In this document: one piece after another, positions 44,590-62,976 of the stretch
Position numbering within the stretch: position 1 is the first letter of the stretch
How the letters are laid out: every line of letters begins with the position of its first letter
From: Bacteroidota bacterium
GTDB lineage: Bacteria; Bacteroidota; Bacteroidia; Chitinophagales; Chitinophagaceae
NCBI GenBank assembly: GCA_013285905.1
Contig: JABDGU010000002.1
Coordinates: 1 to 64,000 of the forward strand
DNA: 64,000 nt
Direction: 5' to 3'
Notes under the pieces: model-generated
Database searches by the model: none
Seen by the model: the letters and a program-made list of their open reading frames with translations, nothing else
What the model was told of the DNA's origin: nothing
Made by a program: the position numbers and the translations under genes

Positions 44590-44779
44590 TCCGTATATCA
44601 AAAATAAAAAGTAAAGGTAGGGTATTATAAGCCTAGTAGGTTTTTCGCAATGCTGTAAAAATTTATATGCGTATAGAGCCGGTTTATTGCGCTCTAAATA
44701 AAATCTTTTATTCCCTGTATATTGTGAGGTATAGTTTCTTGTTTTTTGTATTTTTTGTATTTTTTAAGAGCTTAACGTC

Positions 44780-46276
44780 ATGCAGAGGATAACTGCCTTT
44801 CTTTTCTTATGTTTTATAAGCATACACCATTTGCAGGCGCAAATATTGCCTAAAGAAGGGAGGGCATTGAATTACAGGATCATTGGTTTTTCATTTCCCC
44901 CGGTGACGAATAATAGCGAATATATATTCGAACTTGCTATAGGGAGTCACAATTCTGAAGAATCGTTTAAGAAAAACATAATTAATACATATATATGTAA
45001 GGCAAGCAGGAAAATAGTGGAAGTCCCTTTTTGGGGGCAGGAATATACCTGGCGTATAAGATCTGCCAATGAGGGCCCGGGTGCCATAAGTTCCTTTCAT
45101 CATTTCAGCACCTTATTTAAGAATAAAACAGACAGCTGCAAAGTACGCTTACGAATTATGCAGGAAGCAAAGAAATATAAGGAGGGATATGTTTTTCTTG
45201 ACGCTAATAAGGCACTGTATAATATGAAGGGAGAGGCAGTGTGGTTCCTGCCCGGCAAAACCTTTTTGCATGTAAGTGTAAGGGATATGAAAGCGACACC
45301 CTTCGGAACCATCACCTTGATGCTTAAGGACGAGGAGAAGGTATATGAAATAAACTATGAAGGCGATATCTTATGGCAAGGGCCCAATACCGGGGCGGTA
45401 AGCGGCAATGCAACAGAGCATTACCATCATGAATTTACCCGATTGGCAAATGGCCATTATATGGCTTTGGGAAATGAAATGTTTTGGGAGAGCCCAAAGC
45501 ATAGAGATAGCAGCGCAGCAGACACCAATTTGTACCATAGCACAGAGCCTATGCCAACGATAATAGAATATGACGAGAATGGCAAGCTTGTATGGTCATG
45601 GTTGTCGTCGGGATATTTCAGGACCTCGGACCTTATTAATTTCAATACAAAGTTTTTTGTCCAAAAAGTTCCCGTGGATGTGGACGTACATGCCAACTCG
45701 TTTTATTTTGATGAAAAGGCAAAAGTCATTTATCTAAGTTTTAAGGGCATTAGCCGAATTGTAAAAGTGAAATATCCCGAGGGCGTAGTATTGAATACTT
45801 ACGGAGCGGTTTTTCATCGGGGCGTGCCTGAACAGAGGAACGGATTGTTTTGCGAGCAGCATAGTATCAAACACTCCCCAAACGGCTACATCTACATGTA
45901 TAACAATAACCCCTGCGAAACAGGGCATTCTGCCAAACTGATAGAGATGGAGGAGCCGGCTAGTGGTAAAACAGAGCTTAAAAAAATATGGGAATATGAA
46001 TGCACAGTAGAAGGGAATTACTCAAAAGAAAGCCTCGCAAGTGGGGGAGGAAATGTGATGGAGTTGCCGGACAGTTCATTGTTTGTGAGTATGGGTGGTG
46101 CTTATAGCAAAGTCTTTATTGTTAGCCATAGTAAGGATATTTTATGGAGTGCCATCCCTGAAAAATGGCTGCCCGCGCAGCAAAAATGGAGTGTTGTTCC
46201 GCAATACAGGGCAAGTATCATTGAGGACAGGAAAGTACTTGAAAAGTTAATTTGGACAGCGGAAAAGCATAAATGA
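44780..46276 (+). CDS. Arylsulfate sulfotransferase-like secreted protein, paralogue 1
   Basis: 498 residues. A signal peptide (MQRITAFLFLCFISIHHLQAQ) is followed by an N-terminal beta-sandwich (ILPKEGRALNYRIIGFSFP ... YTWRIRS). The remainder is a beta-propeller with repeats such as NMKGEAVWFLP, INYEGDILWQGP and YDENGKLVWSW. It fits the arylsulfate sulfotransferase (ASST) family. Residues matching the ASST active site are His216-His217 (YHHEF), His304 (VHANSFYFDE), Arg326 (ISRIVK) and His361 (EQHS, then YNNN). ASST moves sulfuryl groups between phenolic compounds via a sulfo-histidine, without PAPS. There is no type IX sorting tail, so it is probably periplasmic. It shares the insertion type TEPMPTIIEYDENG and the SGGGNVMELPD loop with paralogue 4. 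First gene of a tandem array; the substrate is unknown. Confidence 0.75.
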   Translation: MQRITAFLFLCFISIHHLQAQILPKEGRALNYRIIGFSFPPVTNNSEYIFELAIGSHNSEESFKKNIINTYICKASRKIVEVPFWGQEYTWRIRSANEGPGAISSFHHFSTLFKNKTDSCKVRLRIMQEAKKYKEGYVFLDANKALYNMKGEAVWFLPGKTFLHVSVRDMKATPFGTITLMLKDEEKVYEINYEGDILWQGPNTGAVSGNATEHYHHEFTRLANGHYMALGNEMFWESPKHRDSSAADTNLYHSTEPMPTIIEYDENGKLVWSWLSSGYFRTSDLINFNTKFFVQKVPVDVDVHANSFYFDEKAKVIYLSFKGISRIVKVKYPEGVVLNTYGAVFHRGVPEQRNGLFCEQHSIKHSPNGYIYMYNNNPCETGHSAKLIEMEEPASGKTELKKIWEYECTVEGNYSKESLASGGGNVMELPDSSLFVSMGGAYSKVFIVSHSKDILWSAIPEKWLPAQQKWSVVPQYRASIIEDRKVLEKLIWTAEKHK

Positions 46277-46366
46277 TAGCGGGCCTATAATAATATTGAT
46301 CCAAGAGGCTCTTTGCCGGAATTTGAATAGTTTTTGCTAATGATTACTTTTAACGTGATTTACTAT

Positions 46367-47842
46367 ATGTGCAAGAGCCTTGTTTTTCTTTTTTTCTTTT
46401 TTGTACTGATTTGTCCGCTTGGTGCCCAAATATTGCCCAAGGAAGGCAGCAACTTAAATTACAGGCTTATAGGTTTTTCTTTTCCACTTGAAAAAAATGC
46501 GGGTAAAAGCAGTTTGGAGATAGCGAAGGGGAATTGGAGTACGGAAGAGGCCTTTAAAAAAAATATTATTAAAAAGCAGCCCTGCAAAACAAATAAAATT
46601 GTGATCGAGCTAGCTTCGTTTGGCAGCCAATACAGCTGGCGTGTAGTATATACTGATGCCAAACAAGTTACTAAGGCGGGCGAACTACATCATTTCAGTA
46701 CCGATATTAATAAGAGGGTGAATATGGATAGTACGCGCCTGCGGATCGCAAAAACGAATGAAAAGTATAAGGATGATTTTCTTTTTATAGACCATAGTGG
46801 TGTGCTGTATGACATGAAGGGTGCGCCTGTGTGGTTTCTTCCTAAGGGAGACGAGATAATTAGCAGTATCAGGGATATGAAACTCTCTGCATTTGGAACC
46901 ATTACCTACCTGGCCAAAGACAGCGCCTATGAGGTAAATTATGCCGGCGATATAATATGGCAAGGCCCGAATAACGGCAAAGTGAGTGGTGACAGTGCTG
47001 AGCGTTACCATCATGAATTCAAGAGGATGGCAAATGGCCATTACATGCTATTGGGAGATGAAGTGGTATTGTGGAAGAAAAAGTTGTTGACTGCAAATGA
47101 TAGTAATATTGCCGCACCTGCTGCTATTAAAGCTCATTTCGGAACGATCATAGAATATAATGAAAAGGGCGATGTAGTATGGACCTGGCGATCTTCGGGC
47201 TATTTTATTAAGTCTGATGTTAATTATTATGATGGTTCGCGGACGGGTGAGGAAGACCCGGTGCATGAAAATGCTTTTTATTTTGACGAGCAGCATAAAA
47301 TTATTTATGTAGGGTTTAAAAATATCAGCCGCATACTTAAAGTAAAATATCCGGAGGGAACAGTGATAGAAAGTTATGGTGAAATTTACAAAGCAGGCAT
47401 ACCTGCAAGTGGAAACGGATTGTTCTGTTCGCAGCATAGTATAGGGCTCACAGAAAATGGGTATTTATACATGTTTAATAATAATACCTGTAATGAAGGT
47501 AAGGCTGCTACTGTAATTTTGATGAAGGAGCCCGGGCCGGGGGAAGAAGGGCTGAAAAAAGTGTGGGAATATGTATGCCCTGTGGAAGCGGGAAGGCCTC
47601 CTTTGTTTACTACAGGCGGCAATGTAGTGGAATTGAAGGACCACTCCTTGTTAGTTTGTATGGGCCTTACTATGAACAAAATACTGATCGTGGGCCGGGA
47701 TAAAAAAATTGCCTGGAGCGCATTTAATGAAGCATGGAGTCCTTATGAAAAAAAATGGTGGGTATTGCCACAATACAGGACGAATATAATTGAGGGGCGT
47801 AAAAATTTAGAAAAGCTGATATGGAATGTAGAAACAAAATAA
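46367..47842 (+). CDS. Arylsulfate sulfotransferase-like secreted protein, paralogue 2
   Basis: 491 residues from the chosen start, which begins the signal peptide MCKSLVFLFFFFVLICPLGAQ, as long as in the siblings; upstream starts at 46340 (ATG) or 46334 (TTG) would put polar residues before it. It has the same two-domain plan as its neighbours: sandwich domain (ILPKEGSNLNYRLIGFSFP), then propeller. Active-site pattern: His215-His216, His300, Arg322, His357. Notable is HENAF instead of HxNSF next to His300: the usual Ser is Ala, which may alter the site. It ends 22 bases inside the next gene's reading frame, so translation of the two is coupled. Confidence 0.75.
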   Translation: MCKSLVFLFFFFVLICPLGAQILPKEGSNLNYRLIGFSFPLEKNAGKSSLEIAKGNWSTEEAFKKNIIKKQPCKTNKIVIELASFGSQYSWRVVYTDAKQVTKAGELHHFSTDINKRVNMDSTRLRIAKTNEKYKDDFLFIDHSGVLYDMKGAPVWFLPKGDEIISSIRDMKLSAFGTITYLAKDSAYEVNYAGDIIWQGPNNGKVSGDSAERYHHEFKRMANGHYMLLGDEVVLWKKKLLTANDSNIAAPAAIKAHFGTIIEYNEKGDVVWTWRSSGYFIKSDVNYYDGSRTGEEDPVHENAFYFDEQHKIIYVGFKNISRILKVKYPEGTVIESYGEIYKAGIPASGNGLFCSQHSIGLTENGYLYMFNNNTCNEGKAATVILMKEPGPGEEGLKKVWEYVCPVEAGRPPLFTTGGNVVELKDHSLLVCMGLTMNKILIVGRDKKIAWSAFNEAWSPYEKKWWVLPQYRTNIIEGRKNLEKLIWNVETK

Positions 47843-49422
47843 TAAGGACGGGGCTGCGGACATCATACACGGAGATCGTTTCTTTGTTTACAGGCAATGG
47901 ATGGAAGGAGAAGCTAAGCGTCGTGCTTGCTTTCTTTATAATTATTAATTCGCTGCAGGCGCAGACATCACCTAAAGAAGGAAGCGCGTTAAATTACAGG
48001 CTAATTGATTTTTCTTTTCAGCACAATAAAAAAGATAAAGATTGCAAACTCGAGATCGCGAATGGGAACTATAGTGCCGAAGATTTGTTTAAAAAAAATA
48101 TTTTAAAAACAGAAGCCTGTGAAGGCGGGCGTATAATTGCAGAGGTGCCATTTTGGGGAAACCAGTATACATGGCGCCTGAAATATAAGGACAGCACAGG
48201 AGCGAATGCCAAAAGTGAATTGCATCATTTTAGTACGTCCACTACCGGTATGCTTGATACCAATATGTTTCGTCTCAGGATCATTAGCCAGAGCACAAAA
48301 TATAAAGATGCATTTGTGCTGCTTGACAGGACCAGAATGATGTATGATATGAATGGACGGCCCGTATGGTTTTTGCCCGAAAGCAAGGCTTGGGAAGGAG
48401 ATTTGAGGGACCTGAAACTTTCGCCCTTCGGGACGATCACTTTTTTGTGCGGAGACAAGATATTTGAAGCAAATTATGACGGGGATATTTTATGGAAAGG
48501 CCCGGATAACGGAAAGGTAAGCGGCGACAATTCGGAACATTACCATCATGAGTTTACAAGACTGACAAATGGCCATTATATGGTAATGGGGGACGAAGAA
48601 GTGGGCTGGACACCTGAACTTGCCAAACTAAAGGGCTGCCGTCCGCTCGGTGTTTCCAGCGATACGATGAAAGGCGATATAACGACCTCGCAGAAATCAA
48701 TGTTCGGCACCTTGATAGAATATGATGAAAAAGGCAAGATAGTATGGTCGTGGAGGTCGTCATGCTATTTTATTAAATCGGACCTGATGCTGGATGATTC
48801 GCTGAAGCCCGGGATAAATGATTATATCGACATACACTCCAATTCATTTTATTTCGACGAAAAACATAAGACTATTTATATTGGTTTCAGGGGCTTGAGC
48901 CGTATTGTTAAGATAAGATATCCTGATGGTGCTGTGCTTAATACTTATGGAGAAATATACAAGGCCTCGACCCCCAAAATGGGAAATGGCCTGTTTCTGG
49001 CCCAGCACAGTATATCACTTTGCCACAACGGAGAGCTCTGTGTGTACAATAATAATTTTAATCCCGCCAAGCCCTTCGGTCAATTTCCCAAAGTGGTGTT
49101 GATGCAGCAGCCCGGCCCCGGAAAAGGCCAGTTGAAAAAAAGCTGGGAATATGAATGTACTGTGCCTGAGGGCGGGCAGAGAAATTTTACGACAGGTGGT
49201 GATGTGGAGGAACTAAGCGACAGTAGTTTGTTTGTGTGCATGGGTGGTTCGTACAGCAAAATATCGATTATTAACAGGGCCAGGGAAACACTGTGGTCAG
49301 CTTTGCCGGAAACTTATATTGAATCACTAAACAGATGGGGTGCAAATCAAACTTACAGAGCACATCTTATAGAAAACCGCAAAGACCTGGAGAAACTGAT
49401 ATGGGCGACGGAAAAAAAGTAA
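47821..49422 (+). CDS. Arylsulfate sulfotransferase-like secreted protein, paralogue 3
   Basis: 533 residues if it starts at the ATG overlapping the end of paralogue 2 by 22 bases. That gives an unusual polar leader of about 30 residues (MECRNKIIRTGLRTSYTEIV...) before the hydrophobic signal segment LSVVLAFFIIINSLQAQ. A TTG (47884) or GTG further in would give an ordinary signal peptide, so the real start is uncertain. Active-site residues: His242-His243, His339, Arg361, His396. The segment between the first two His is about 12 residues longer than in paralogues 1, 2 and 4 and contains a Cys (KGCRPLG). Similar extra length occurs in paralogue 5. Confidence 0.75.
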   Translation: MECRNKIIRTGLRTSYTEIVSLFTGNGWKEKLSVVLAFFIIINSLQAQTSPKEGSALNYRLIDFSFQHNKKDKDCKLEIANGNYSAEDLFKKNILKTEACEGGRIIAEVPFWGNQYTWRLKYKDSTGANAKSELHHFSTSTTGMLDTNMFRLRIISQSTKYKDAFVLLDRTRMMYDMNGRPVWFLPESKAWEGDLRDLKLSPFGTITFLCGDKIFEANYDGDILWKGPDNGKVSGDNSEHYHHEFTRLTNGHYMVMGDEEVGWTPELAKLKGCRPLGVSSDTMKGDITTSQKSMFGTLIEYDEKGKIVWSWRSSCYFIKSDLMLDDSLKPGINDYIDIHSNSFYFDEKHKTIYIGFRGLSRIVKIRYPDGAVLNTYGEIYKASTPKMGNGLFLAQHSISLCHNGELCVYNNNFNPAKPFGQFPKVVLMQQPGPGKGQLKKSWEYECTVPEGGQRNFTTGGDVEELSDSSLFVCMGGSYSKISIINRARETLWSALPETYIESLNRWGANQTYRAHLIENRKDLEKLIWATEKK

Positions 49423-49456
49423 TGCCGGGACTGTAATTTTTTTTTGTTTAATACTT

Positions 49457-50944
49457 ATGAATAAGATAGGGGTGCTTTTGCTGTTTTGCTGTATTAGCCT
49501 TAAGCAAGTGTTTGCGCAGGTATTGCCAAAAGAAGGGAGCGCGCTCAATTACAGGCTTATAGGTTTTTCTTTCCCGGTTGCGGAGAAAAAAAATAATTGC
49601 GTGATCGAGATAGCCCCGGGAAATTATTACAATGAAGATTCTTTTGAGAAAAACAAGATCAATACACTTGTATGCCGGACTAACAGGATGATCGCAAAGG
49701 TTCCGTTCTGGGGTAAAGAATATACCTGGTGTGTGGTATGTTGCGATAAAGGGCAGAAGCCATATAGAGGTGCCCTGCACCATTTCAGTACCCTGCTTGT
49801 TCCCGGCCTTGACACTGTCTCCCGGCGTTTAAGAGTTACACAAGCCGCCAGGAAATATAAAGACGCATTTGTAATGTCTGACAAATTCAAGGTGATGTAT
49901 GACATGGGTGGGGATGCAATATGGTTCCTTCCGCAAAAAACAGACCTAAGCGATACCCTATATGAAATAAGAGACTTGAAATTATCGCCACAGGCAAGCA
50001 TTACATTTATACATGAAGGCGGGATATTTGAAGTAAACTATAATGGAAACATTTTGTGGCAAGGCCCTAATACAGGAGAAATAAGCGGGAGTAAATCAGA
50101 AAATTTTCATCATGAATTTACCCGCCTTCAGAATGGAAATTATATGGCCCTGGGAATTGAGCGACCTGAGCGGAAACCTAAACAAAATGAAACGCCGGCG
50201 GCAGATGATAAGTTGTTTCATACTACTTTACCTTTACCAACATTGATAGAATATGACAGCAAAGGCAGGCTGCTGTGGTTTTGGAAGTCTGCAAACTATT
50301 TCAGGCATTCTGATCTTGTTTATTATACAAGGTCCGGCCCGGTAGGTGTTGATGTACATTCCAATTCATTTTATTTTGACGAAGAAAACAAGGCAATTTA
50401 CATAAGCTGTAAAGACATCAGCAGGATCATAAAGATCAAATATCCTGAAGGTACTGTGATGAATGTGTATGGGGAGGTCTTTAAAAAAGGTGTGCAGCCA
50501 AAAGGTAACGGCTTGTTTTGCGACCAGCACAGCGTGCGGCGCTCAAAAAACGGTTATTTATACCTGTATAACAATAATCCGTGCGATACCGGCTCGTATG
50601 CCAGGGTGATGGAAATGCTGGAAGCCCCTGCCGGTAAAAAGGGGTTGAAAAAAATATGGGAATATGAGTGCCGGCCAGGGGGAAGCTATACACCCAAAGA
50701 GGCCGCAGGCGGCGGTGGCAACGTGATGGAACTGCCGGACAGGTCTTTATTTGTGAGTACCGGTGGCCCTTACTGCAAAATATTTATCGTGAACCGGAAT
50801 AAAGAAATTTTATGGGAAGCCGTTCCGGAAATATACAGTGCAAATGAAAAGAAATGGGAGGCTACATCCCAGTACCGCTCCAGTATCGTTGTTGACCCTA
50901 AAATGATAGAGAAATTGATCTGGGCCGGTGAAGAAGAGCAATAG
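49457..50944 (+). CDS. Arylsulfate sulfotransferase-like secreted protein, paralogue 4
   Basis: 495 residues with a signal peptide (MNKIGVLLLFCCISLKQVFAQ). Sandwich domain VLPKEGSALNYRLIGFSFP, propeller with YDMGGDAIWFLP and VNYNGNILWQGP. Active-site pattern: His218-His219 (FHHEF), His301 (VHSNSFYFDE), Arg323 and His358 (DQHS). It is most like paralogue 1: both have the PT(I/L)IEYD insertion, DVH before the second His, and the GGGGNVMELPDRSLFVS loop. It lies 34 bases after paralogue 3 and is followed by a 256-base AT-rich gap before the first giant surface-protein gene. Confidence 0.75.
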   Translation: MNKIGVLLLFCCISLKQVFAQVLPKEGSALNYRLIGFSFPVAEKKNNCVIEIAPGNYYNEDSFEKNKINTLVCRTNRMIAKVPFWGKEYTWCVVCCDKGQKPYRGALHHFSTLLVPGLDTVSRRLRVTQAARKYKDAFVMSDKFKVMYDMGGDAIWFLPQKTDLSDTLYEIRDLKLSPQASITFIHEGGIFEVNYNGNILWQGPNTGEISGSKSENFHHEFTRLQNGNYMALGIERPERKPKQNETPAADDKLFHTTLPLPTLIEYDSKGRLLWFWKSANYFRHSDLVYYTRSGPVGVDVHSNSFYFDEENKAIYISCKDISRIIKIKYPEGTVMNVYGEVFKKGVQPKGNGLFCDQHSVRRSKNGYLYLYNNNPCDTGSYARVMEMLEAPAGKKGLKKIWEYECRPGGSYTPKEAAGGGGNVMELPDRSLFVSTGGPYCKIFIVNRNKEILWEAVPEIYSANEKKWEATSQYRSSIVVDPKMIEKLIWAGEEEQ

Positions 50945-51200
50945 TGGAGCAATTACTTGATTTTTATTTCAATGTGACTTATTATTGTATTGTTATGGTA
51001 AATATATGTTACTGTTTTTCGGACATTTTGATGCATGAAAAGTGGTATTTTGTTGTTTTTGTTAATTATTTACTATTTTTAGAAAGTTAAATTGCATTTA
51101 TGCTTTATGAGTAAATAGCGTGTTTGTTTTGCGCTATTGTATGTTTTAGGGCTATTTGTAAACATTTTAGAGAATAAACAAATAAAAATAAGCTGGTATT

Positions 51201-54200
51201 ATGAAAAGTTTTACCCCACAAGTTTTAAGGAATTATTTTTTCCTGTGTATTGCATTACTGCCACTTGTAGCGAATGCGCAAACTTATTGTACGCCCAACT
51301 CCTATTATGGGGATTATTATGGCTCGTCACATGATTTTTCATTTACAATGTCAGGTGGTTTGTCGAATATCAACTGGACGCCCGGCTCAACCACCCCAAA
51401 TGGTTTGCCGGGTATGCTTAGCTATGATGGCTCGCACACAAGCAGCGCTTATTATGGTACCCACGCTGGTGAGGGTTATCTTTATGTAACCACCACGCAA
51501 GAAGTAGTTACCCCCGGCACTACGCTGACCTGGAGCCTGCTGACAAATGCCGATATCGGTACTTATTATGGCCCATTGATACATTCGTTCAGTATAGACT
51601 GGAACGGTAACGGAAATTTTACTGACGCCGGTGAAAATGTGTTTGTCAATACAACCCAAACAACCAGTTCGGTTGTGTTCTCGGGCAGCATTACAGTGCC
51701 TCCCGCCACAGCTATCGGCCTGAAGCGTTTACGTTTAATGTCAAGCTATTATTATTATGGCACCCCGGGTACTTGCTGGTCTTATTCCACTAATTCGGCT
51801 TATGCCACTACGTGGATAGATTTTAATTTTATAGTTACGGGCCCTTGCGGCGCTGCGCCCAGTGCTCTTTCTGTAACATCCGCTCCATTAAGCCAGCCCA
51901 TTTGTACAGGTGCTACAGCTACTATTTCGGCCAGCGACCCCAATTTTTTCACCGGCCTTGTTACTAAATGGCAACAATCCTTATCGGCTTCAGGCCCCTG
52001 GACCAATGTGCCATCCGGCCCTAGCGGCGGACAAAATGTGAACGGTCTTGTTTTTACCACACCGGCCTTAGTTGATACTACTTATTTCAGAGTAATTGAT
52101 TCCTGCACTATTACCCAACAGAACTCTGCCGGCTCGGGTGTTTACGCTGTTCCCATAGTGAGGTATAATATACCTTACCTGGAAACATTTAACACCACTG
52201 CGAATAATACGGTGCCGACATGTTATGTGTTTAATGATAATTACGGTACTAATTTCACAGTGCAAAGCGGGCTTCAGTCTGCAGACGGTTCCACTACGAA
52301 TACGGCGATGTATGCGAATGATCCGGCGACTAATACAACAGGTAAAAATGACTTCTTTACCTTACCCGGTTTAAAGCTTACTGCAAATACACTATATGCG
52401 ATCCGATTTAAGTACGCGAGGGGAAGGAGTAACCCTGCTACAAATACAGGCAACCTTTACCCGGAACATTTACAATTGTTTGTAAACAATTATCAACCAC
52501 AATTTGTTGTTGCGAATGTTACCGGCGGCAATAATCTTTTCGATCAGACAATAAGTTTCAATAACCTAGCTGATACAACCGTTTATTTTACGCCCCTGAC
52601 TACGGGAGGCTATTATTTTTCATGGTATTCCAATACAGCACATCCAAGTACGGCCAATACCGCAGGCGGTGTAGTAATAGTTGACAGTGTGTATGTAGGC
52701 CTGGGAACCTGCGTAGCTCCAGCTATTGTAAATCAACCGGCTGCTACACAGTCCGGCTGCGTTGGTACATCAACAACTTTTTCGGTGGTTAGCAGCGGAA
52801 CCGGAAATAATTACCAATGGCAATATAATGGTTCTGCTATAACCGGCGCCACCGGCAAAAGCTATACGATTGCCAATACAACTGTGGCTAATGCAGGCAC
52901 TTATACCTGTGTTATTACCAACCCCTGCGGCACTGTTACCACTACTAATGATGTGCTGAGCGTATTTGCATTACCTACTAATGCCATAACGCCGTCTGCG
53001 GCCGTTACGATCTGTTCTGCAAGTGGTTATATGCTTACTGCTAACACCAATGCGGTTTCCCCGGTTTACCAGTGGAAACTGAACGGAACTACTATAGGCA
53101 CAGGCTCAACGTATACGCCTACTCTTTCCGGTTTATACACTGTTGTTGTTACGGATGTAAACAATTGTTCACAATTGTCAGCTAATACGGATACGATCAC
53201 TGTAAATGCGTCTCCGACTGCGTCTATCAGCCCAAGCGGTTCTACCGTGTTTTGCACCGGCAGCAGCGTAACTTTATTCGGGCCTACCGGCTCGGGTCTC
53301 AGTTATCAATGGTATAATGGCACCGCAATACCTGGTGCCACCACATCATCTTATGTTGCCAGCACTAACGGCAACTATACTATCAAGGTTTCTAACTCAA
53401 ACTGTACCTTAACTTCGCCTGTGCAGACAGTAAGTGTAAATTCCCCGCCATTGGCCAATATCATTGCCTCCGGCCCAACTACTATTTGCCAGGGTAATAA
53501 TGTAGTCTTATCAGCTTCAACCGGTGCAGGTTATACCTATACATGGAGATTGAATGGTTCACCAACTGCCATTTCAAGTGCCAACGATACTATTACAGCC
53601 GCAGGGAGTTATTCTGTTGTTACAGCTATCGGCTCCTGCACCACGACGTCGACTGATGTTGTTGTGAACCTAAACGCCGCTCCGAACGCTACAGTTAGCC
53701 CATCAGGCACAGTTAGTGTTTGCACGGGTGGCAGTGTGGTTTTATCTATTCCCCCAGTTGCCGGCAATACGTATCAATGGCAATATGAGGGTTTTGCCAA
53801 TGGCATTACAACCCCCAATGATACGGTTACTGTGGCCGGCGACATTCGCCTGCTGGTAACCAATAGTTTGGGATGTTCTGCACTGTCGGGCATCACCACT
53901 ATTAATATTGTACCCTTACCTGTTGACACCATAACACCGAGTGCCCCCGCCGTGTGTTCAGGTTCTAATGTGACTCTGAATGCCAATACCGGTACGGGTC
54001 TCAGCTATCAGTGGATAGTGAATGGCAACGTAATAGCCGGCGCAACAGGCGCGTCTTACACAGACCTGCCCCTTGTTAATACTCCTTACCAGGTTGTTGA
54101 AACCAATTCAACAGGCTGTGTGGATACTTCGATAGCTACAACGATCACGGTAAATGCCTTACCGGCATCTGCCATTACGCCGGCCGGAAATCTTTCAGTC

Positions 54201-55856
54201 TGTACGGGTGGAAGTGTGGTATTGAATGCGAATGGCGGTGCGACCAATTACCAATGGCAGTTAAACGGCGTGAATATAGCCGGCGCCGGCGCCAGTGGTC
54301 CTTCTGCTACCTTCTATACTGCAGCGGCAGCGGGCAACTATACTGTTCTTGAAACGAATGCTGCAAATTGCTCAGCTATATCGGCGGCAAAAACAGTTGT
54401 TGTAAACAGTAACCCTACTGTGACCGTAACATCAAACGGACCAACGACATTCTGCCCCGGTGGCAGTGTAATATTAACGGCAACGACTGTACCTGCACCT
54501 CCGGGTTATACCTACAAATGGCTTAATGGTACTACTGTTGTCGGAACAAGTTCTACTTTCGCAGTAAGTTCAGGTGGCAGTTTCAGGGTTGTAGTTACCA
54601 AGACATTGCCGGCCGGTTGCTTTGATACCTCTTCTGTGGTAGCAGTTACTCTTTTCCAGGCACCAAGTAATATTATTGCACCTGCAGGACCTACTACTTT
54701 CTGCGAGGGAGCAAGTGTGGTATTGAATACGGCTATAGTTGCCGGGATCAATTACCAATGGTTATGGGATGGCATAAATATTACCGGCGCTACCTCGTCT
54801 TCTTATACAGCAACAACAACAGGGAGCTATACTGTAACTGTATCGAATGCGGCTTGCTCCAGCACTACAGCCCCTGTGGCGGTAACTGCGAACCCGTTAC
54901 CAACCGCAACAGTAAGCGCTTCCGGGCCTACAACATTCTGCTCCAATGAAAGCCTTACTTTGAATGCCGGCAGCGGTGTTGGATACACATATCAATGGCA
55001 ACGTGCAGGCATTAATGTAAACGGCGCAGGTGCAACTGCCGCGTCCTATACTACCGTCGTTTCCGGCGCATATTCTGTTTTGGTTACAGACGCAAATGGC
55101 TGCAGTGCTTCATCTACACCAACTGTTAATGTTACGGTTAACCCGGCACCAAGCGTTACAGCCACTATCGCAGGTTCAGCTGTATTATGCCAGGGTGATA
55201 CCGTGCATTTATACGCAAATTCCGGCAGCACTACGGGCCTTTCCTACCAATGGCAGATGAACAGTGTGAATTTGCCGGGCGCACTATCCGCTTCTTACTA
55301 CAGCACTATTGTTGGGGCTTACGATATGGACGTGATAGCAAAGAGTGCCAATGGCTGTTATGATACATCAGCGCCTGTAAGTGTTACTATCAATGCAAAA
55401 CCGGTTCCGGTTATTTTAGCTGCAGGTAATGTTTTGGGTACATCTTTATATAACAGTTACCAGTGGTACCTTAACGGTGTTGCAATACCGGGCGCCACAG
55501 GCGAGAACTATATAGCTACACAAACAGGTAATTATACAGTGTTTGTTGTTGACAATAATAATTGTTCAGCAATATCACAGGAGTTTGATCTGTCGGACCT
55601 CAGTGTAAATGGTGTGAACTATAACAGCGACATCGTTAAGATCTATCCTAACCCTGCCACATCTGTAATACATATTGATGCACCGATGAAGGTGGATGTA
55701 AGGATCAGGAGTATAGAAGGCAGGGACGTATTGGAAGGAAAGGGTGTAAAGGATATGGACATCAGCAAATTGCCCGATGCTGTGTATATGATCATTGTGA
55801 GCGACGCATCAGGTGCTGTTATCAAATATGAGAAATTGGTTAAAACCGGTTTGTAA
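51201..55856 (+). CDS. Giant surface protein: GEVED-like domain, about 12 Ig-like repeats, type IX sorting domain
   Basis: 1551 residues. A signal peptide (residues 1-27, ending VANAQ) is followed by a GEVED-like domain (about 28-215) with the hallmark SIDWNGNGNFTDAGENVF and a following KRLRLMSSY segment. The bulk (about 530-1465) is about 12 Ig-like repeats of roughly 80 residues, each with SYQW...NG..I.GAT..SY......G.YTV and a Cys in the next start (TICxGxSVxLxA). The C-terminal 80 residues (VKIYPNPATSVIHIDAPM...AVYMIIVSD...IKYEKLVKTGL) form a type IX (type A) sorting domain, so the protein should be exported by the type IX system and attached to the surface. It resembles adhesins; the ligand is unknown. 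A strong terminator follows. Confidence 0.85.
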   Translation: MKSFTPQVLRNYFFLCIALLPLVANAQTYCTPNSYYGDYYGSSHDFSFTMSGGLSNINWTPGSTTPNGLPGMLSYDGSHTSSAYYGTHAGEGYLYVTTTQEVVTPGTTLTWSLLTNADIGTYYGPLIHSFSIDWNGNGNFTDAGENVFVNTTQTTSSVVFSGSITVPPATAIGLKRLRLMSSYYYYGTPGTCWSYSTNSAYATTWIDFNFIVTGPCGAAPSALSVTSAPLSQPICTGATATISASDPNFFTGLVTKWQQSLSASGPWTNVPSGPSGGQNVNGLVFTTPALVDTTYFRVIDSCTITQQNSAGSGVYAVPIVRYNIPYLETFNTTANNTVPTCYVFNDNYGTNFTVQSGLQSADGSTTNTAMYANDPATNTTGKNDFFTLPGLKLTANTLYAIRFKYARGRSNPATNTGNLYPEHLQLFVNNYQPQFVVANVTGGNNLFDQTISFNNLADTTVYFTPLTTGGYYFSWYSNTAHPSTANTAGGVVIVDSVYVGLGTCVAPAIVNQPAATQSGCVGTSTTFSVVSSGTGNNYQWQYNGSAITGATGKSYTIANTTVANAGTYTCVITNPCGTVTTTNDVLSVFALPTNAITPSAAVTICSASGYMLTANTNAVSPVYQWKLNGTTIGTGSTYTPTLSGLYTVVVTDVNNCSQLSANTDTITVNASPTASISPSGSTVFCTGSSVTLFGPTGSGLSYQWYNGTAIPGATTSSYVASTNGNYTIKVSNSNCTLTSPVQTVSVNSPPLANIIASGPTTICQGNNVVLSASTGAGYTYTWRLNGSPTAISSANDTITAAGSYSVVTAIGSCTTTSTDVVVNLNAAPNATVSPSGTVSVCTGGSVVLSIPPVAGNTYQWQYEGFANGITTPNDTVTVAGDIRLLVTNSLGCSALSGITTINIVPLPVDTITPSAPAVCSGSNVTLNANTGTGLSYQWIVNGNVIAGATGASYTDLPLVNTPYQVVETNSTGCVDTSIATTITVNALPASAITPAGNLSVCTGGSVVLNANGGATNYQWQLNGVNIAGAGASGPSATFYTAAAAGNYTVLETNAANCSAISAAKTVVVNSNPTVTVTSNGPTTFCPGGSVILTATTVPAPPGYTYKWLNGTTVVGTSSTFAVSSGGSFRVVVTKTLPAGCFDTSSVVAVTLFQAPSNIIAPAGPTTFCEGASVVLNTAIVAGINYQWLWDGINITGATSSSYTATTTGSYTVTVSNAACSSTTAPVAVTANPLPTATVSASGPTTFCSNESLTLNAGSGVGYTYQWQRAGINVNGAGATAASYTTVVSGAYSVLVTDANGCSASSTPTVNVTVNPAPSVTATIAGSAVLCQGDTVHLYANSGSTTGLSYQWQMNSVNLPGALSASYYSTIVGAYDMDVIAKSANGCYDTSAPVSVTINAKPVPVILAAGNVLGTSLYNSYQWYLNGVAIPGATGENYIATQTGNYTVFVVDNNNCSAISQEFDLSDLSVNGVNYNSDIVKIYPNPATSVIHIDAPMKVDVRIRSIEGRDVLEGKGVKDMDISKLPDAVYMIIVSDASGAVIKYEKLVKTGL

Positions 55857-55870
55857 ATAAAGCTTTTCTA

Positions 55871-55911
55871 AAAAAAATGTTGCCCCAAATTATTTGGGGC
55901 AACATTTTTTT
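55871..55911. terminator. Intrinsic terminator, bidirectional-looking
   Basis: AAAAAAATGTTGCCCCAAA (55871-55889), loop TTA, and its exact complement (55893-55911) ending in a T-run. It follows the stop of the first giant gene by 14 bases. Confidence 0.9.
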
Positions 55912-55972
55912 GTGCCTGTATGAATAAAAACAAAGGGTCCTTTTGTTACTTTTATATTTCTTTACGTGCATC

Positions 55973-57481
55973 ATGTTTAAAGAATTCATACTCCTCTTAT
56001 TTTTTACTGTTTTAGTTCAGCATGGGGCTGCCCAGGTAGTTCCGGCTGAGGGCAGTTTGTTAAATTACAGGCTTGCAGGCTTCTCTGTTGCCGGCAAAGA
56101 ACAAATAAGTGAGTGCAGATTTGAAATTGCGGACGGGGATTATTCCACGGAAGACTCGTTTAACGGTCACCTTATTAAAACTGTTACGAGCAAAAGGAAA
56201 AGGGCCATCATTGAACTGCCCTGGTGGTCGCATGCGTATACCTGGAGGGCTGTTTATAAGAGAAAGGACCTAAAAACAGTGCAGAGCCGGTTATACCATT
56301 TCAATACGGATTACAGCCCCGATGCAGATACAGATAGCATTCGTCTCCGGATCATTCAGCCGGCATCGAAATATAAGGATGCTTATGTTTTCCTGGACGA
56401 GAACAGGGCTCTTTACAATATGCGGGGTGAGCCGGTATGGTTCATGCCTAAGAAATTTACGGAAGGTGATAAGCGCCCGCGCGATCTTAAAGTATCCTCA
56501 AAAGGTACTATTACTTTTTTGATCTCGACCGAAGCTTATGGAATAAACTACAACGGGGATGTATTATGGAAGGGCCCGGACAATAAAGACCTGAGCGATA
56601 AGTATGGGCAAAGCTTTCATCATGACCTGACACAACTCTCCAATGGCCATTATATGGTTTTGGGCGATGAAGCCATATCTATGTATCCGCTGCTTGAGGA
56701 CTTTAAAGCCGGTAAACTGAAAAATTGCAGTTGCGATGATGTGAAGAGAAAAGTAATGGAAAAAAGCCCCGCAGCATCACCTGCGCGTTTCGGAACGGTG
56801 ATAGAATATGATAAGAATGGCAAGATAGTGTGGTCCTGGCGTTCTTTTTGTTATTTTATTAAATCAGACATTATCAATTACGGAGCTAAGGGTCCCTTAG
56901 ATCTGGGGGATCTCCACGAAAATTCATTTTACTTCGATGAAAGCGCTAAATGTCTGTATGTAGGTTTCAGGCGCATCAGCAGGATATTGAAGATAAAATA
57001 TCCTGAAGGGAAAGTGACAGGGGTTTATGGCGAGATATTCAGAGATGGTGAATCGCCAAAAGGCAATGGTCTATTCTGCCAGCAGCATAGTGTAAAGCAC
57101 TCTGAAAAAGGTTACTTATTATTGTATAATAATAATCTTTGCGATTCTGTGATGCCAAGTATCATGATGCTCCGGGAGCCTTCTTTACCGAAGGAGGGTT
57201 TGAAAAAAATATGGGAGTATACTTGTACCATGGAGGCAGACTTACCAAAACAATTTCACCAGGGAGGCAATATTATTGAATTGCCGGGCAATTCTTTTTT
57301 TGTTAGCATGGGCAGCCCTTACAGCAAAGTATTTATTGTAGGTATGGATAAGAAAATAGTGTGGAGTGCATTGCCCGAAAAGTGGGACAATGCAGCTAAA
57401 AAGTGGTTGATACTGCCGGAATACAGGGCGAGTATTATTGTAAATAGAAATGACATTGAAAGAATGGTATTGCCATTTTGA
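55973..57481 (+). CDS. Arylsulfate sulfotransferase-like secreted protein, paralogue 5
   Basis: 502 residues from the chosen start (MFKEFILLLFFTVLVQHGAAQ, a clean signal peptide); a start 10 codons upstream only lengthens the leader. It has the sandwich domain VVPAEGSLLNYRLAGFSV and propeller as in the others. Active-site pattern: His216-His217 (FHHDL, Asp instead of Glu), His315 (LHENSFYFDE), Arg337, His372 (QQHS). The loop between the first two His is the longest of the five and holds a Cys pair (KNCSCDD). It is separated from the four-gene array by the first giant gene and precedes the second giant gene by 212 bases. That spacing suggests a second, smaller copy of an enzyme-plus-adhesin unit. 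Confidence 0.75.
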   Translation: MFKEFILLLFFTVLVQHGAAQVVPAEGSLLNYRLAGFSVAGKEQISECRFEIADGDYSTEDSFNGHLIKTVTSKRKRAIIELPWWSHAYTWRAVYKRKDLKTVQSRLYHFNTDYSPDADTDSIRLRIIQPASKYKDAYVFLDENRALYNMRGEPVWFMPKKFTEGDKRPRDLKVSSKGTITFLISTEAYGINYNGDVLWKGPDNKDLSDKYGQSFHHDLTQLSNGHYMVLGDEAISMYPLLEDFKAGKLKNCSCDDVKRKVMEKSPAASPARFGTVIEYDKNGKIVWSWRSFCYFIKSDIINYGAKGPLDLGDLHENSFYFDESAKCLYVGFRRISRILKIKYPEGKVTGVYGEIFRDGESPKGNGLFCQQHSVKHSEKGYLLLYNNNLCDSVMPSIMMLREPSLPKEGLKKIWEYTCTMEADLPKQFHQGGNIIELPGNSFFVSMGSPYSKVFIVGMDKKIVWSALPEKWDNAAKKWLILPEYRASIIVNRNDIERMVLPF

Positions 57482-57693
57482 GCGTTAAAAACTAAAAGCC
57501 AATAAGATAGATAGAGATGCAGATTTTCTCACTTCTTTTACATGTATTATATGTTAATATTATTGTGAAATGCTTTATAAAATAAAATATTCATTTGCGT
57601 TTTGTTGATTTTTTAAAAAATATTGATAATCTTAATTGAATTCCTTAAATTGCTTAGCAAATATTTAATAGCTTCAAAAAAATATACAGTGTT

Positions 57694-60600
57694 ATGAACA
57701 AATTTACTCATTCGATTAGGGTTTATGTTAGTATAGCAATATTGGCCTTATTTGCTGCCAATGCGCGTGCGCAGACGTATTGCATACCGCATTCCTATTA
57801 TGGAGGTGATGGCGGCTCTATGCAGTACACAGCATTTTCTACTACCGGTGGTGTACAAAACATTACTTATAACCCGGGTGCAGCGAACATTCCCAATAAT
57901 TTCAGTGCGCCTAGTTATTACAACAATGCGTCTGAGGGTTATAGCTATGTTACCACTACACAGGCGGTAGCGGCTCCCGGCACTGCCATGACGTTTACGA
58001 TCCATACCAGTTCTACATACAGTATGTATTATTTTATTTGGGTTGATTGGAACGGAACAGGCTCGTTTACCCAGGCAGGTGATACGATACAAGGTAAGGC
58101 TTACACTTTGGGTACCGGTTCAGGTACAAATATTAACATTACCGGGAGTTTTACAGTGCCGGGAACTGCTTCACCGGGCGTAAAACGTTTGCGCATATCA
58201 GCTAGTTATGTTGACGCTACTTTTTATCCCATGCCGGCTCCTTGTCTTACTTATACATCTGCAAATGAGTGCTATTATATGGTTTGGACAGATTTTAATT
58301 TTATTGTTCAGGCGCCTTGCAGCGTTACACCTATAGCTTGCAGTATAACAAACAACGCGGCAGGAACTTTATGTGCAGGTACACAATTGGCGCTCATCGG
58401 TTCCGACCCTAATACAGCGTTTACAGGTATCAGCTATCAATGGCAAAGTGCTACAAGCGCCACAGGCCCCTGGACAAATGTACCCGGTGCCACATCTTTA
58501 AATTATACCACCCCACCTCTTCTTACAAATATTTACTATAGGGTCATAGATACTTGTAATAATATTTCTGCTGCCAGTGCAGCCAGTACGGGCTACCCTA
58601 TTGCAGTAACGGGTTATCCGATGCCTTATATTCAAAATTTTGACTCGGCAGCTGCGTCGAACGCGGGTCTTGCAAATTTTTTAATACCACATTGTATGGT
58701 GGGCAATTATAACGCTGCCACTGCCAGTACCCAAACCATTTTTTCTGAAGGTTTTGATGGAACGGCTTTCCCGCCAACAGGTTGGATCACCGGTCCCTCT
58801 AATGGAAGTAACGGTACTTGCTCAGGTGTATTTCCCCTGAAAAGGTGTGTAAGTTTTTCTTCCGGCAGTATGACGGCTCAATTTGGCTGTAGTTCGGTGG
58901 GTGTTCCGGCGTCAGGAACCACCCACAATAGCTCGGCAGGTATGATCGGCCTTAACTCCTGGTTCATTTCAAGTGGCTATTACGGGACCATTATAAGCCC
59001 GGCGATCAATATGGCCTCTTACGCGGGTGGAAGTAATTACCAACTCAGTTTTTGGGTTTATGGAGAAAGTGGTGATCCATGGAACGTATCTCTGAATACC
59101 AGCCAAAGTGCTACCGGGGCAACATCGATCGCCAGTGTTTCATCATCTACCGGGCTTGTTTGGACCCAGCACACCTATACCATACCTGCAAGCTTTTTGA
59201 ATGGTAATATGTATATTATTATTCAGGGCTACTCTAACTACGGCGATGATATATTTTTCGATGACGTATCAGTTACTTATCTACCAGTTCCCCGTACCAT
59301 GTTTATGGAAATGGGTTATAATAATACCAAATTTACTTGTGCTGATGGCACTGTATTACCTTGGTGCGTTTATGCAAACGATACCACCGGTACTACGGCA
59401 ACTAATGGCAAACTGGATTATCTCACTACGCCCGCTCTGCCTTTAGTGCAGGGTATTAATTATCGTGTGAGGTTTGGTTACGGCAGGGGCACATCTAACT
59501 GGACAAATAATACCGGTACTCCACCCAATACGGAGAACCTGTATCTTATGGCAGGTAGTAACAATCCGGGTACTGCGTCTTCTGTAAACCCCGTGGGCAA
59601 TTTCCCTAATCCCCAGATATGGAGCGGGACAGCTGCAAACAATACCTATGTTTCAACTACTTCTCTTCCCGGTGGCCCGATAATTTATTCTGCTACCAGC
59701 ACAGGACCTTATTTCTTCAGCTGGATAGATAATACACCTCATAGTGGTGCGACTACTGTTGCTAATGGTACAATTGCTTTAGACAGTATCAGGATAGACA
59801 GTGTGGGTTGCGTGCTTCCGAGTATTGTTGGTCAGCCGGCCCCGGCCACCAGCGTTTGCGCCGGTTTCCCTGCGTCATTTTCTGTAGTAGGGGCGGGATA
59901 TGGCCTGACATATCAATGGTATAGAAATGGCAGTGCGATACCTGGTGCAAGCGCCAGTTCTTATACTATCGGTGCCACTGCGCTCACTGATTCCGGACTT
60001 TATACTGTAGCTGTTATCGGAGCTTGCGGCGGGACAACGACTGTAATGTCTACTAATGATACCCTGAGAGTAGTTTCTTCTCCTCCGGCAAGTATTACCG
60101 CAGGAGGCCCTACCACTATTTGTCCGGGCAATACCGTCCCATTAAATGCTAATGTTGGTTCAGGTTATACCTACCAATGGTCAAATAATAATGGCATTAT
60201 AGCAGGTGCTACTTCACCAAGCTATTCTGCCGGCCTCGCCAGTACCTACAAAGTAACAGTGTCTGGTTCAGGGGGCTGCTATACCACATCTGCAGGTGTT
60301 ACCGTAGTTGTAAATGCTGCACCACCTGCAGTAGTTACGCCCGGCGGTTCTACAACATTATGCCAAGGCAGTTGCGTAAGTCTTTCGGCGGGTAACACGG
60401 CTTCCCAGACATATCAATGGAACATAAACGGAACTGCAATACCAGGTGCTACCGGTGTATCGTATTCTGCCTGTGTGCAAGGTACCTATACAGTTACTAT
60501 TACCAATACCAACAATGGTTGCACAGCAACATCGCCTCTGTCAGTTCCTGTAATCGTAAATCCATTACCTTCATCATTAGTTACAGGCAGCGGGGTTGAT

Positions 60601-62976
60601 ACGTTCTGCCAGAATGGTAGTGTTACTTTTGTTGGTCCTGCAAACGGTGGTGTAAATTACCAATGGTATAACGGACTAACACCACTTGCTAACCAAACGA
60701 CAAATACCTATATAGCTACCAATACCGGGCTGTATTATTTGAAGGTAACAAACCTGTTAACAGGTTGCTCGTCCAGTTCAACACCTGTAAATGTATTACT
60801 CAATGTACCTTCTGCAACAGTAACTGCACCTACAACCAGTTTGTGTAATGGCAACAGCGTTACCCTTACCTCTACGAGTACGGGGAGCAATTTAACCTAC
60901 CAATGGTATATTAATGGCTACGCAATTAATTTAGCGAACGCACCGACTTACACGACCAATACACCAGGTAATTATACCGTTACTGTAACGAGCACAGTTG
61001 GTCAGTATTCATGTTCTAATACTTCGACACCTCCTATTCCTTTACAGATTTATTCACCACCACCTGCATACATTACCACCAATACCTCTACCACTTTCTG
61101 CGCGGGCAGCACTGTTTTGCTTACCGCTGATACGGGTACCGGTTACACTTATCAGTGGCAGCTTAATGGTAATAATATACCCCAGGCCACAGTTTTTGAT
61201 CTTTCTGTTCCGTCCAGCGGTAACTATAGTGTGAAAGTAACAAATGCCTATGGTTGCTCCGCTATATCTCCTGCTACTACGGTTACGGTAATACCGCTTC
61301 CTGTGCCAATAGTTACTGCATCGGGTAATACGCAATTGTGCCCAGGCAGCAACGTAACATTGAGCACAAGCACGGCTCCGGGATTAACTTACCAATGGTA
61401 TAACGGCACTACTCTGATACCCGGCGCAACCTTCCCTGTTTATGTTACTGCAACTACTGCAAATTATACGGTGGTAGTTACTAATAATACAGGCTGCCAG
61501 GGTACTTCAAATGCTACGTCTGTAGTGATGAACGCTGTTCCTTCGTCAGCTATTACAGCTACGGGTGCAACCAGTGTTTGTAGTGGTACAAGTGTTTTAT
61601 TGAGTGCAGCGGCAGTGAGCGGTCTTAGTTACCAATGGTTATTCAACGGCAATGCCATTAGCGGCGCCAATAGCTCTTCTTATTCTGCAAGCACTGCAGG
61701 TAATTATACAGTAACTGTAACCAATGTCGCTGCGGGCTGTACATCAACTACAATAACACCAGGAACCCACGTAACAGTTTTCCCATTGCCTAGCGCAACA
61801 AGTTCATCAATTGGTGCTACTTCTGTATGTGAAGGCACTAGTGTTATTTTGCTTGCCAATACAGGTACCGGCTTATCTTATCAATGGAATAACAGTGGTA
61901 CACCAATAACGTCTGCCACACATTTAACAGATACAGTAACTATAAGTGGTAGCTATACTGTGACCGTTACAGACGCCAATAATTGCTCTGCCACATCTTT
62001 GCCAAGCCAGGTAACAATATATGCGATACCTGTTGCAGGTATGGTGCCTGCCGGAGATACCGGTTTTTGCCAGGGAGGAAGTGTATTGCTTTCTGCCGTA
62101 GCCGGAGCAGGTTATACTTACCAATGGATAAAGAACGGTGTGAATATTGCAGGTGCTGTTGGCGCTACTTACCTGGCTAACCAGCAGGGTGTGTACAGTG
62201 TGTTGGAGACTAACAATATTTGTGGTTCCACATCGCCTACCAAAAATGTAGTTGTTTATCCGCAGCCATCTGATTTGGCAACTTTATTAGGTGCGGATAC
62301 AATATGTTATAATGACTCAGTGCAATTACAGGCCACAGCTACGGGTAGCGGATACACTTACCAATGGGAGGTGAATGGCTCACCGATAACAGGTGCAACA
62401 CATTCTGCTTTATGGGCCCAGACTGCTGCCGGCTATGCTGCAGTAGTTACCAGCAACTATGGATGCGCGGTTACTACACAGTCAATACAGGTTTATAACT
62501 TCCCGCCGCCTAATCCGGGTATCATTGCCAATGGAAATAATCTTTCTACGGGTACTTTCGTAAGCTATCAATGGTATCGCGGCGGCACAGCCCCTGCCAA
62601 CCTGATAACCGGCGCGACCGGAAATGGGTATACTGCCAGCCAGTCTGGAGACTACTATGTACATGTTATTGACGATCATGGTTGTGGTGAATTCTCACCA
62701 AAATATACTGTGGGAACTACCGGCGTAGCTAATGTTGGTAGTGGAACGGGAGATGTAAAGATCTACCCTAATCCTGCAACAACTATAGTATATATTGAAG
62801 CTGCTGTGAAAGTAAATGTAAAAGTATCGGACCTTGAGGGCAAGGCTCTTATCAATGAGCATAATGCAAAACAAATAGATATAAGTAATCTGGCAAATGG
62901 CGTGTATATGATAAGTGTTTACGATAACCAGGGCGGCTTATTGAAAGTGGATCGCTTGTTGAAAGCCGGTCAATAA
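57694..62976 (+). CDS. Giant surface protein: GEVED-like and adhesin-like domains, 12-13 Ig-like repeats, type IX sorting domain
   Basis: 1760 residues. The signal peptide ends ARAQ near residue 27. The first domain (TYCIPHSYYGGDGGS...) mirrors that of the other giant protein, with FIWVDWNGTGSFTQAGDTI and KRLRISASY. Residues about 345-530 form a jelly-roll adhesin domain of the choice-of-anchor J or MAM-like type (EGFDGTAFPPTGW ... SWFISS ... DDIFFDDVSVTY) not present in the first giant. Then come about 12-13 Ig-like repeats (SYQW / TYQW, GAT, GNYTVTV pattern) and a type IX sorting tail (VKIYPNPATTIVYIEAAV ... NGVYMISVYD ... DRLLKAGQ). The shared opening and repeats show that the two giants are paralogues. 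A terminator follows. Confidence 0.85.
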   Translation: MNKFTHSIRVYVSIAILALFAANARAQTYCIPHSYYGGDGGSMQYTAFSTTGGVQNITYNPGAANIPNNFSAPSYYNNASEGYSYVTTTQAVAAPGTAMTFTIHTSSTYSMYYFIWVDWNGTGSFTQAGDTIQGKAYTLGTGSGTNINITGSFTVPGTASPGVKRLRISASYVDATFYPMPAPCLTYTSANECYYMVWTDFNFIVQAPCSVTPIACSITNNAAGTLCAGTQLALIGSDPNTAFTGISYQWQSATSATGPWTNVPGATSLNYTTPPLLTNIYYRVIDTCNNISAASAASTGYPIAVTGYPMPYIQNFDSAAASNAGLANFLIPHCMVGNYNAATASTQTIFSEGFDGTAFPPTGWITGPSNGSNGTCSGVFPLKRCVSFSSGSMTAQFGCSSVGVPASGTTHNSSAGMIGLNSWFISSGYYGTIISPAINMASYAGGSNYQLSFWVYGESGDPWNVSLNTSQSATGATSIASVSSSTGLVWTQHTYTIPASFLNGNMYIIIQGYSNYGDDIFFDDVSVTYLPVPRTMFMEMGYNNTKFTCADGTVLPWCVYANDTTGTTATNGKLDYLTTPALPLVQGINYRVRFGYGRGTSNWTNNTGTPPNTENLYLMAGSNNPGTASSVNPVGNFPNPQIWSGTAANNTYVSTTSLPGGPIIYSATSTGPYFFSWIDNTPHSGATTVANGTIALDSIRIDSVGCVLPSIVGQPAPATSVCAGFPASFSVVGAGYGLTYQWYRNGSAIPGASASSYTIGATALTDSGLYTVAVIGACGGTTTVMSTNDTLRVVSSPPASITAGGPTTICPGNTVPLNANVGSGYTYQWSNNNGIIAGATSPSYSAGLASTYKVTVSGSGGCYTTSAGVTVVVNAAPPAVVTPGGSTTLCQGSCVSLSAGNTASQTYQWNINGTAIPGATGVSYSACVQGTYTVTITNTNNGCTATSPLSVPVIVNPLPSSLVTGSGVDTFCQNGSVTFVGPANGGVNYQWYNGLTPLANQTTNTYIATNTGLYYLKVTNLLTGCSSSSTPVNVLLNVPSATVTAPTTSLCNGNSVTLTSTSTGSNLTYQWYINGYAINLANAPTYTTNTPGNYTVTVTSTVGQYSCSNTSTPPIPLQIYSPPPAYITTNTSTTFCAGSTVLLTADTGTGYTYQWQLNGNNIPQATVFDLSVPSSGNYSVKVTNAYGCSAISPATTVTVIPLPVPIVTASGNTQLCPGSNVTLSTSTAPGLTYQWYNGTTLIPGATFPVYVTATTANYTVVVTNNTGCQGTSNATSVVMNAVPSSAITATGATSVCSGTSVLLSAAAVSGLSYQWLFNGNAISGANSSSYSASTAGNYTVTVTNVAAGCTSTTITPGTHVTVFPLPSATSSSIGATSVCEGTSVILLANTGTGLSYQWNNSGTPITSATHLTDTVTISGSYTVTVTDANNCSATSLPSQVTIYAIPVAGMVPAGDTGFCQGGSVLLSAVAGAGYTYQWIKNGVNIAGAVGATYLANQQGVYSVLETNNICGSTSPTKNVVVYPQPSDLATLLGADTICYNDSVQLQATATGSGYTYQWEVNGSPITGATHSALWAQTAAGYAAVVTSNYGCAVTTQSIQVYNFPPPNPGIIANGNNLSTGTFVSYQWYRGGTAPANLITGATGNGYTASQSGDYYVHVIDDHGCGEFSPKYTVGTTGVANVGSGTGDVKIYPNPATTIVYIEAAVKVNVKVSDLEGKALINEHNAKQIDISNLANGVYMISVYDNQGGLLKVDRLLKAGQ

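Follow-up and report, generated by a model that had tools for sequence, protein, structure and literature searches.

The window analysed here is a 64,000-nucleotide stretch of contig JABDGU010000002.1 (assembly GCA_013285905.1) from a member of the Chitinophagaceae. Five intact genes for ASST-like enzymes and two genes for giant proteins of the type IX secretion system (T9SS) lie on its plus strand, at the positions assigned to them in a preliminary description of this DNA (Table 1). The annotated start codons of ASSTs 2, 3 and 5 are probably too early; in ASST 3, the profile match starts at 47911. As ASSTs 2 to 5 share 47-53% identity with ASST 1, the copies are old paralogues and not recent duplicates or an assembly artefact. 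The N-terminal part of giant 2 is 40% identical to giant 1. Matches to a Bacteroidota-type promoter motif stayed at chance level, with none in the cluster. The source genome (G000) is a 2.5-Mb MAG, 61% complete, and three more members of the ASST family, two of them incomplete, are found on its other contigs. The phosphoesterase and FMN-reductase genes that precede the cluster occur in identical order beside an ASST in a genome of the same genus (G001, contig C399, locus L130). The cluster exceeds chance both by its domain content and by its layout.

Table 1 Features of the ASST-giant cluster and its left flank, in window positions
Feature	Position	Strand	Description
Phosphoesterase gene	42769-44034	-	Synteny anchor; name from sequence inspection
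NADPH-dependent FMN reductase-like gene	44089-44601	-	Synteny anchor; name from sequence inspection
Gap between FMN-reductase gene and ASST 1	44602..44779	.	Occupied in G001 by the gene for a TsdA-like dihaem cytochrome lipoprotein, which is absent in the window
ASST-like enzyme 1	44780..46276	+	498 aa; PF05935 E 5e-12; signal peptide, no sorting domain
ASST-like enzyme 2	46334..47842	+	ORF 502 aa; PF05935 E 4e-13; likely start ATG 46367
ASST-like enzyme 3	47821..49422	+	ORF 533 aa; PF05935 E 3e-13; start probably 3' of 47821
ASST-like enzyme 4	49457..50944	+	495 aa; modelled beta-propeller and N-terminal sandwich
Putative catalytic residues of ASST 4			H219, H301, N303, R323, H358
Giant T9SS protein 1	51201..55856	+	1551 aa; signal peptide, GEVED, Ig_7/Ig_3 repeats, Por_Secre_tail
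ASST-like enzyme 5	55943..57481	+	ORF 512 aa; PF05935 E 3e-13; likely start ATG 55973; directly upstream of giant 2
Giant T9SS protein 2	57694..62976	+	1760 aa; GEVED, Ig_7 repeats, Por_Secre_tail
Strong intrinsic-terminator-like hairpin	63001..63028	+	11 pairs, 8 GC; closes the cluster; pattern match only

All five enzymes score above the Pfam cut-off for PF05935 (45.9-57.3 bits compared to 24.2; E 5e-12 to 2e-15). An AlphaFold2 model of ASST 4, built from 64 family sequences, reached a pLDDT of 90 and a pTM of 0.90. When this model was compared to the PDB with Foldseek, the best match was E. coli AssT (3elq, E 8e-18), with an alignment that covers model residues 10-486; the model consists of an N-terminal beta-sandwich and a beta-propeller. 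A structure search placed Streptomyces Cpz4 (9kf6) at Z 32.4 and AssT at Z 30.8, with the next unrelated fold at Z 21.4. AssT and Cpz4 were also found by sequence when the family profile was searched against the PDB (Cpz4 on top, E 3e-7); a single-sequence search of the PDB with ASST 4 returned nothing relevant, and these matches came only with the profile. The active site of the E. coli enzyme (EcAST) comprises His252, His356, Asn358, Arg374 and His436, the last of which is sulfated (PMC13426309, review). By motif and profile alignment, as opposed to superposition, H219, H301, N303, R323 and H358 of ASST 4 correspond to EcAST His252, His356, Asn358, Arg374 and His436, respectively, and all five are present in each window ASST. 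Among 120 paralogues with ∼31-48% pairwise identity, conservation is 99% for H219, H301 and H358, 100% for N303 and 73% for R323. H358 is kept in 119 of the 120 and in all window copies; the R323 position is Gln in 16 paralogues and Arg in every window copy. The family is thus very probably catalytic, and the window enzymes are likely to be active sulfotransferases. Each begins with a signal peptide ending at an A/Q junction, the ending expected of Bacteroidota signal-peptidase I substrates (PMC5837995), and none of the five carries a T9SS sorting domain. The preliminary description had classed these proteins as exported ASSTs. The structure prediction gave an AssT-like fold, with AssT and Cpz4 as its top matches, which together with the conserved catalytic residues upholds the class, and the five signal peptides bear out the export.

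The two giants differ from the enzymes in carrying sorting domains, with Por_Secre_tail scores of 28.5 and 42.7 bits compared to a cut-off of 27. Their GEVED and Ig_7 repeats are also above cut-off, and their signal peptides were read from the sequence. T9SS machinery is present in the same genome, as SprA (2477 bits) was found on contig C74 of G000. Sorting domains and SprA together agree with the surface routing that had been proposed for the giants. Such tails are abundant in some related genomes: G061-G066 each contain at least 150 Por_Secre_tail matches in ∼5 Mb, and giant open frames there reach 6,000-10,000 aa.

To place the cluster in context, the immediate neighbours of each ASST array were scored in 79 loci from a genome scan plus the window. 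A giant was defined as a protein of at least 900 aa that has a T9SS tail, is low in charge or runs off the end of a contig, and 20 arbitrarily chosen 20-kb regions from six of the set's genomes served as controls. Giants flanked ASST arrays on 30 of 138 sides as compared to 8 of 493 control sides (odds ratio 16.8, p 1e-14), where orthologous loci are not independent and p-values are optimistic, many contigs are short, and genes were called by a simple longest-ORF script. About a third of the arrays (29/84) had a giant neighbour. The 5' end faced the ASST in 27 of these 30 giants, and the remaining three each had another ASST at the 5' end. The result was replicated in separately fetched genomes, where a giant was found on 12 of 57 sides compared to none of 260 control sides (p 4e-10) and beside 9 of 31 arrays. 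In this replication set, an ASST is followed by a GEVED/Ig giant after 86-137 bp in L212, L215, L217 and L220. The giant-ASST-giant alternation of the window recurs in three species (L212, L215 and L229). Four of the 30 giant sides in the first set represent a single orthologous locus (L028, L030, L031 and L032), in which, where scanned, the ASST is followed not by an Ig giant but by a thermolysin-like M4 protease of ∼1150 aa with Calx-beta and a T9SS tail.

A reciprocal test started from one type of giant, whose Gly-rich N-terminal domain gave 131 hits across 17 genomes. Twenty-six of these lie within 2.5 kb of an ASST, where ∼1.1 would be expected, and every one of them has the ASST at the giant's 5' end, 15 in tandem and 11 divergently. 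The other 105 have no ASST within 2.5 kb. Most Gly-rich giants have other neighbours, and other upstream genes also recur. One of these, found in L181, L182, L183, L186, L187 and L191, encodes a lipoprotein-like protein of ∼167 aa with an EGF-like Cys pattern (CNKNKCxxVxCLNxGxCDGGxCxCPxGFEGxRC). Two ASST-bearing genomes, G065 and G068, lack Gly-rich giants, though other giants are present in both. When adjacency to a giant was mapped onto a tree of 119 enzymes, it required 26 changes, of which well-supported branches force at least 18. It is nonetheless more clustered than expected by chance, so the ASST-giant link is neither a single inherited locus nor random. Pairing does not appear to be obligatory, since a 63%-identical orthologue of giant 1 in G001 has no ASST upstream on its contig. 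That orthologue lies at the end of contig C759; an ASST lies at the end of contig C399, and no end overlap was found between these two contigs. An apparent ASST-giant fusion of 2164 aa (G072 contig C52, L124) proved to span a run of N in the assembly and was discarded.

The association of ASSTs with giants is real and recurrent, and a functional link between them is very likely. The idea that the layout matters, which by the terms of the preliminary description would have failed had ASSTs not been enriched beside giants in other genomes, was borne out by the excess over controls in both genome sets and by the recurring gene order. Of that interpretation as a whole, the enzyme class, the export, the T9SS routing and the layout are supported, and the tyrosine rationale considered below is not. 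It did not include the placement of the ASST at the giant's 5' end, nor a further partner that is seen in relatives.

This partner is a gene of 334-363 aa that recurs beside ASSTs and encodes a dihaem c-type cytochrome with a SoxA/TsdA domain, probably a lipoprotein. Its profile best matches Allochromatium vinosum thiosulfate dehydrogenase (E 6e-46), and its score for the NCBIfam SoxA equivalog is under that model's cut-off. Two haem motifs are present, C134 aligns with the catalytic Cys96 of AvTsdA and is invariant in 11 sequences, and a methionine aligned with TsdA Met209 is likewise invariant in the cytochrome partners. Close members (E < 1e-150) were found in 26 of the 33 genomes that carry an ASST, and more than one copy is rare. 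The cytochrome directly adjoins an ASST in 22 of 29 occurrences, a total that takes in two further genomes with generic PF05935 genes (G011 and G032), and the gaps are mostly 8-330 bp. Loci with this adjacency include L027/L130, L031, L035, L036, L057, L217, L220, L224, L230, L231 and L235, and in many cytochrome-ASST loci a giant lies on the other side. In L212, L222 and L229, cytochrome coordinates fill a gap of ∼1 kb between ASST and giant. At the site syntenic with the window, G001 has the cytochrome between the FMN-reductase gene and the ASST. The window, in a 61% complete MAG, lacks it at this site, with the FMN-reductase gene directly before ASST 1. Given this exact match of position, the best reading of the window is that of a cytochrome-ASST-giant locus, conserved in Chitinophagaceae, that was amplified and has no cytochrome at this site.

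At E < 1e-60, the window-type ASST family was detected in 29 of 396 genomes from the same taxonomic family as the window, representing 9 of 103 genera. One scan of relatives found it in 3 of 61 genomes. In these scans, it is limited to some Chitinophagaceae-like genomes. Carrier genomes examined contain 2-12 copies. PF05935 expansions also occur in other genomes of the order, and those examined have their own T9SS sorting domain and no giant neighbours. Such expansions include up to three genes in tandem (L144, L145 and L149, in G038 and G059).

What these enzymes might sulfate was addressed by comparing giants with and without an adjacent ASST. For most PAPS-independent ASSTs, the natural acceptor is not known (PMC13426309). 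Since ASSTs of other lineages use Tyr in peptides and Cpz4 uses sugar hydroxyls, a Tyr or glycan acceptor is chemically plausible. The preliminary description had pointed to tyrosines of the Ig repeats. Tyr is indeed higher in ASST-adjacent giants than in others (4.5 vs 3.5%, raw p 0.0005), but Phe rises together with it (2.6 vs 2.0%) and the Tyr/Phe ratio does not change (p=0.85), so Tyr enrichment was rejected as a sign of the acceptor. In the window's genus, giants with no known ASST neighbour are equally Tyr-rich (5.2-6.4%). Many of the repeat tyrosines are found in the contexts Y-x-W or G-x-Y, positions that normally belong to the core of an Ig fold. The sequences give no pointer to tyrosine in particular. 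Low charge of the giants was also considered as an ASST-linked feature and dropped, as no difference was found.

The explanation we favour is that the ASSTs sulfate co-made surface material at an amplified cytochrome-ASST-giant locus, a reading held tentatively and with somewhat less than even confidence. It builds on what is read from the sequences and the model, namely the genes, the predicted ASST fold and active site, the putative signal peptides, sorting domains assigned to the giants only, a T9SS encoded in the genome, the recurrence of the locus and the 5' placement. At this locus, the gene of a giant T9SS protein is directly preceded by those of one or more PAPS-independent ASSTs that are exported and catalytically intact, usually with the TsdA-type cytochrome on the other side. 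ASST and giant would be co-expressed, either from a tandem arrangement with gaps of 86-256 bp or from a divergent one. Having no sorting domain, the ASST would remain in the periplasm, where a sulfuryl group could pass from a small aryl sulfate to the His equivalent to EcAST His436 and from there to an acceptor on surface material made together with the enzyme. The most likely acceptor would be the giant itself, through side chains or attached glycans, before its export by the T9SS, and repeated ASST genes beside different giants would represent enzyme-cargo pairs. That the giant or its glycan is the acceptor is a possibility we put at somewhat under even. The stronger proposal, a dedicated extracytoplasmic sulfation system for T9SS giants or their glycans whose core locus is linked to a TsdA-type redox cytochrome, is on the doubtful side. 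Counting against the favoured explanation, about two thirds of ASST arrays have no giant neighbour, many giants lie apart from any ASST, two ASST-bearing genomes have no Gly-rich giant, and ASST-adjacent giants show neither a Tyr-specific nor a charge signature. The TsdA-like partner also points to sulfur metabolism, a context that modification of the giants does not need.

That context could be the primary one. An ASST and a TsdA-like cytochrome might form a periplasmic unit that handles organic sulfates and sulfur oxyanions, with the giants, unmodified by the ASST, attaching the cell to its substrate as adhesins or capture proteins. The close match of the cytochrome to TsdA, with the Cys96 and Met209 equivalents invariant, its frequent adjacency to ASSTs and its presence beside the generic PF05935 genes of G011 and G032 all favour such a unit. 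However, a genome with up to 12 ASST copies usually has one cytochrome, which is missing beside most giant-adjacent ASSTs, those of the window among them. The window cluster also shows no sulfatase or transporter, and the regular 5' placement beside giants would require a separate reason. Both the metabolic unit and this role for the giants are considered unlikely. Alternatively, the ASSTs may sulfate the envelope component to which T9SS cargo is anchored, be it anionic LPS or another molecule, with the giants co-regulated and unmodified. The preference of Cpz4, the closest structure, for sugar hydroxyls is consistent with this, as is the adjacency of ASSTs to several unrelated types of T9SS cargo, the thermolysin-like M4 protease among them. 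Many diverged ASSTs each beside its own giant are nevertheless better explained by enzyme-cargo pairing than by a shared anchor, and genes for LPS were not noticed in the window's cluster. An envelope acceptor of this kind is quite unlikely.

It is improbable that the two families have no biochemical link and are surface genes amplified independently within lineages, with promoters or variable regions in common. In favour of this reading, both are amplified, T9SS tails are common in each of the six genomes checked (at least 150 hits), the majority of ASST arrays lack a giant, and genes other than ASSTs also recur upstream of Gly-rich giants. An odds ratio of ∼17 over same-genome controls, replicated out of sample, speaks against coincidence, as do the strict 5'-end placement of the ASST and the spread of giant adjacency over the enzyme tree.

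While the ASST family, T9SS giants and TsdA are each known, the conserved linkage of the three is apparently undescribed; no paper in the open-access literature searched connects ASST to T9SS, to Chitinophaga-type hosts, to adhesins or to thiosulfate dehydrogenase. The partnership recurs in a group of freshwater and related Bacteroidota. A conserved ASST-giant locus with a sulfur-oxyanion cytochrome names concrete, testable acceptor candidates for PAPS-independent ASSTs. If the giants are sulfated, this would be a new kind of PAPS-free bacterial surface-protein modification and would explain why up to a dozen diverged ASST copies are kept per genome. Little is known of the physiological substrates of this enzyme class, and a dedicated sulfation system, if true, would supply it with a natural acceptor and possibly with a source of sulfur.

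Several known systems resemble parts of the locus. E. coli CFT073 AssT (3elq, PF05935) is likewise exported and shares the propeller, the N-terminal sandwich and equivalents of the catalytic residues, but the window family is only ∼13-16% identical to it, shows no DsbL/DsbI-like operon partner, numbers up to a dozen paralogues per genome and has T9SS giants and the TsdA-like cytochrome as neighbours. Cpz4 (9kf4/9kf6), the closest structure (Z 32.4) and best PDB profile match, has the same catalytic motifs; unlike the window family, it is an antibiotic-tailoring enzyme in a biosynthetic cluster and its known acceptor is a caprazamycin sugar hydroxyl. The T9SS-exported paralogues of other Chitinophagales (L144, L145 and L149) share PF05935, tandem amplification and the phylum with the window enzymes, but differ in their own sorting domain, a length of 550-740 aa and the lack of giants beside them. 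The cytochrome of the relatives, a putative TsdA absent from the window, resembles A. vinosum TsdA (4wq7) in its two CxxCH haems and invariant Cys96 and Met209 equivalents, and differs in its lipoprotein-like N-terminus and its position beside an ASST. SprB-type T9SS adhesins are giant, repetitive proteins with a PorP/SprF partner. No sulfotransferase partner for such systems was described in the open-access literature searched. The window giants are likewise giant, repetitive T9SS cargo, and in L212 and L217 a PorP/SprF gene lies just beyond the 3' end of the GEVED giant, on the opposite strand.
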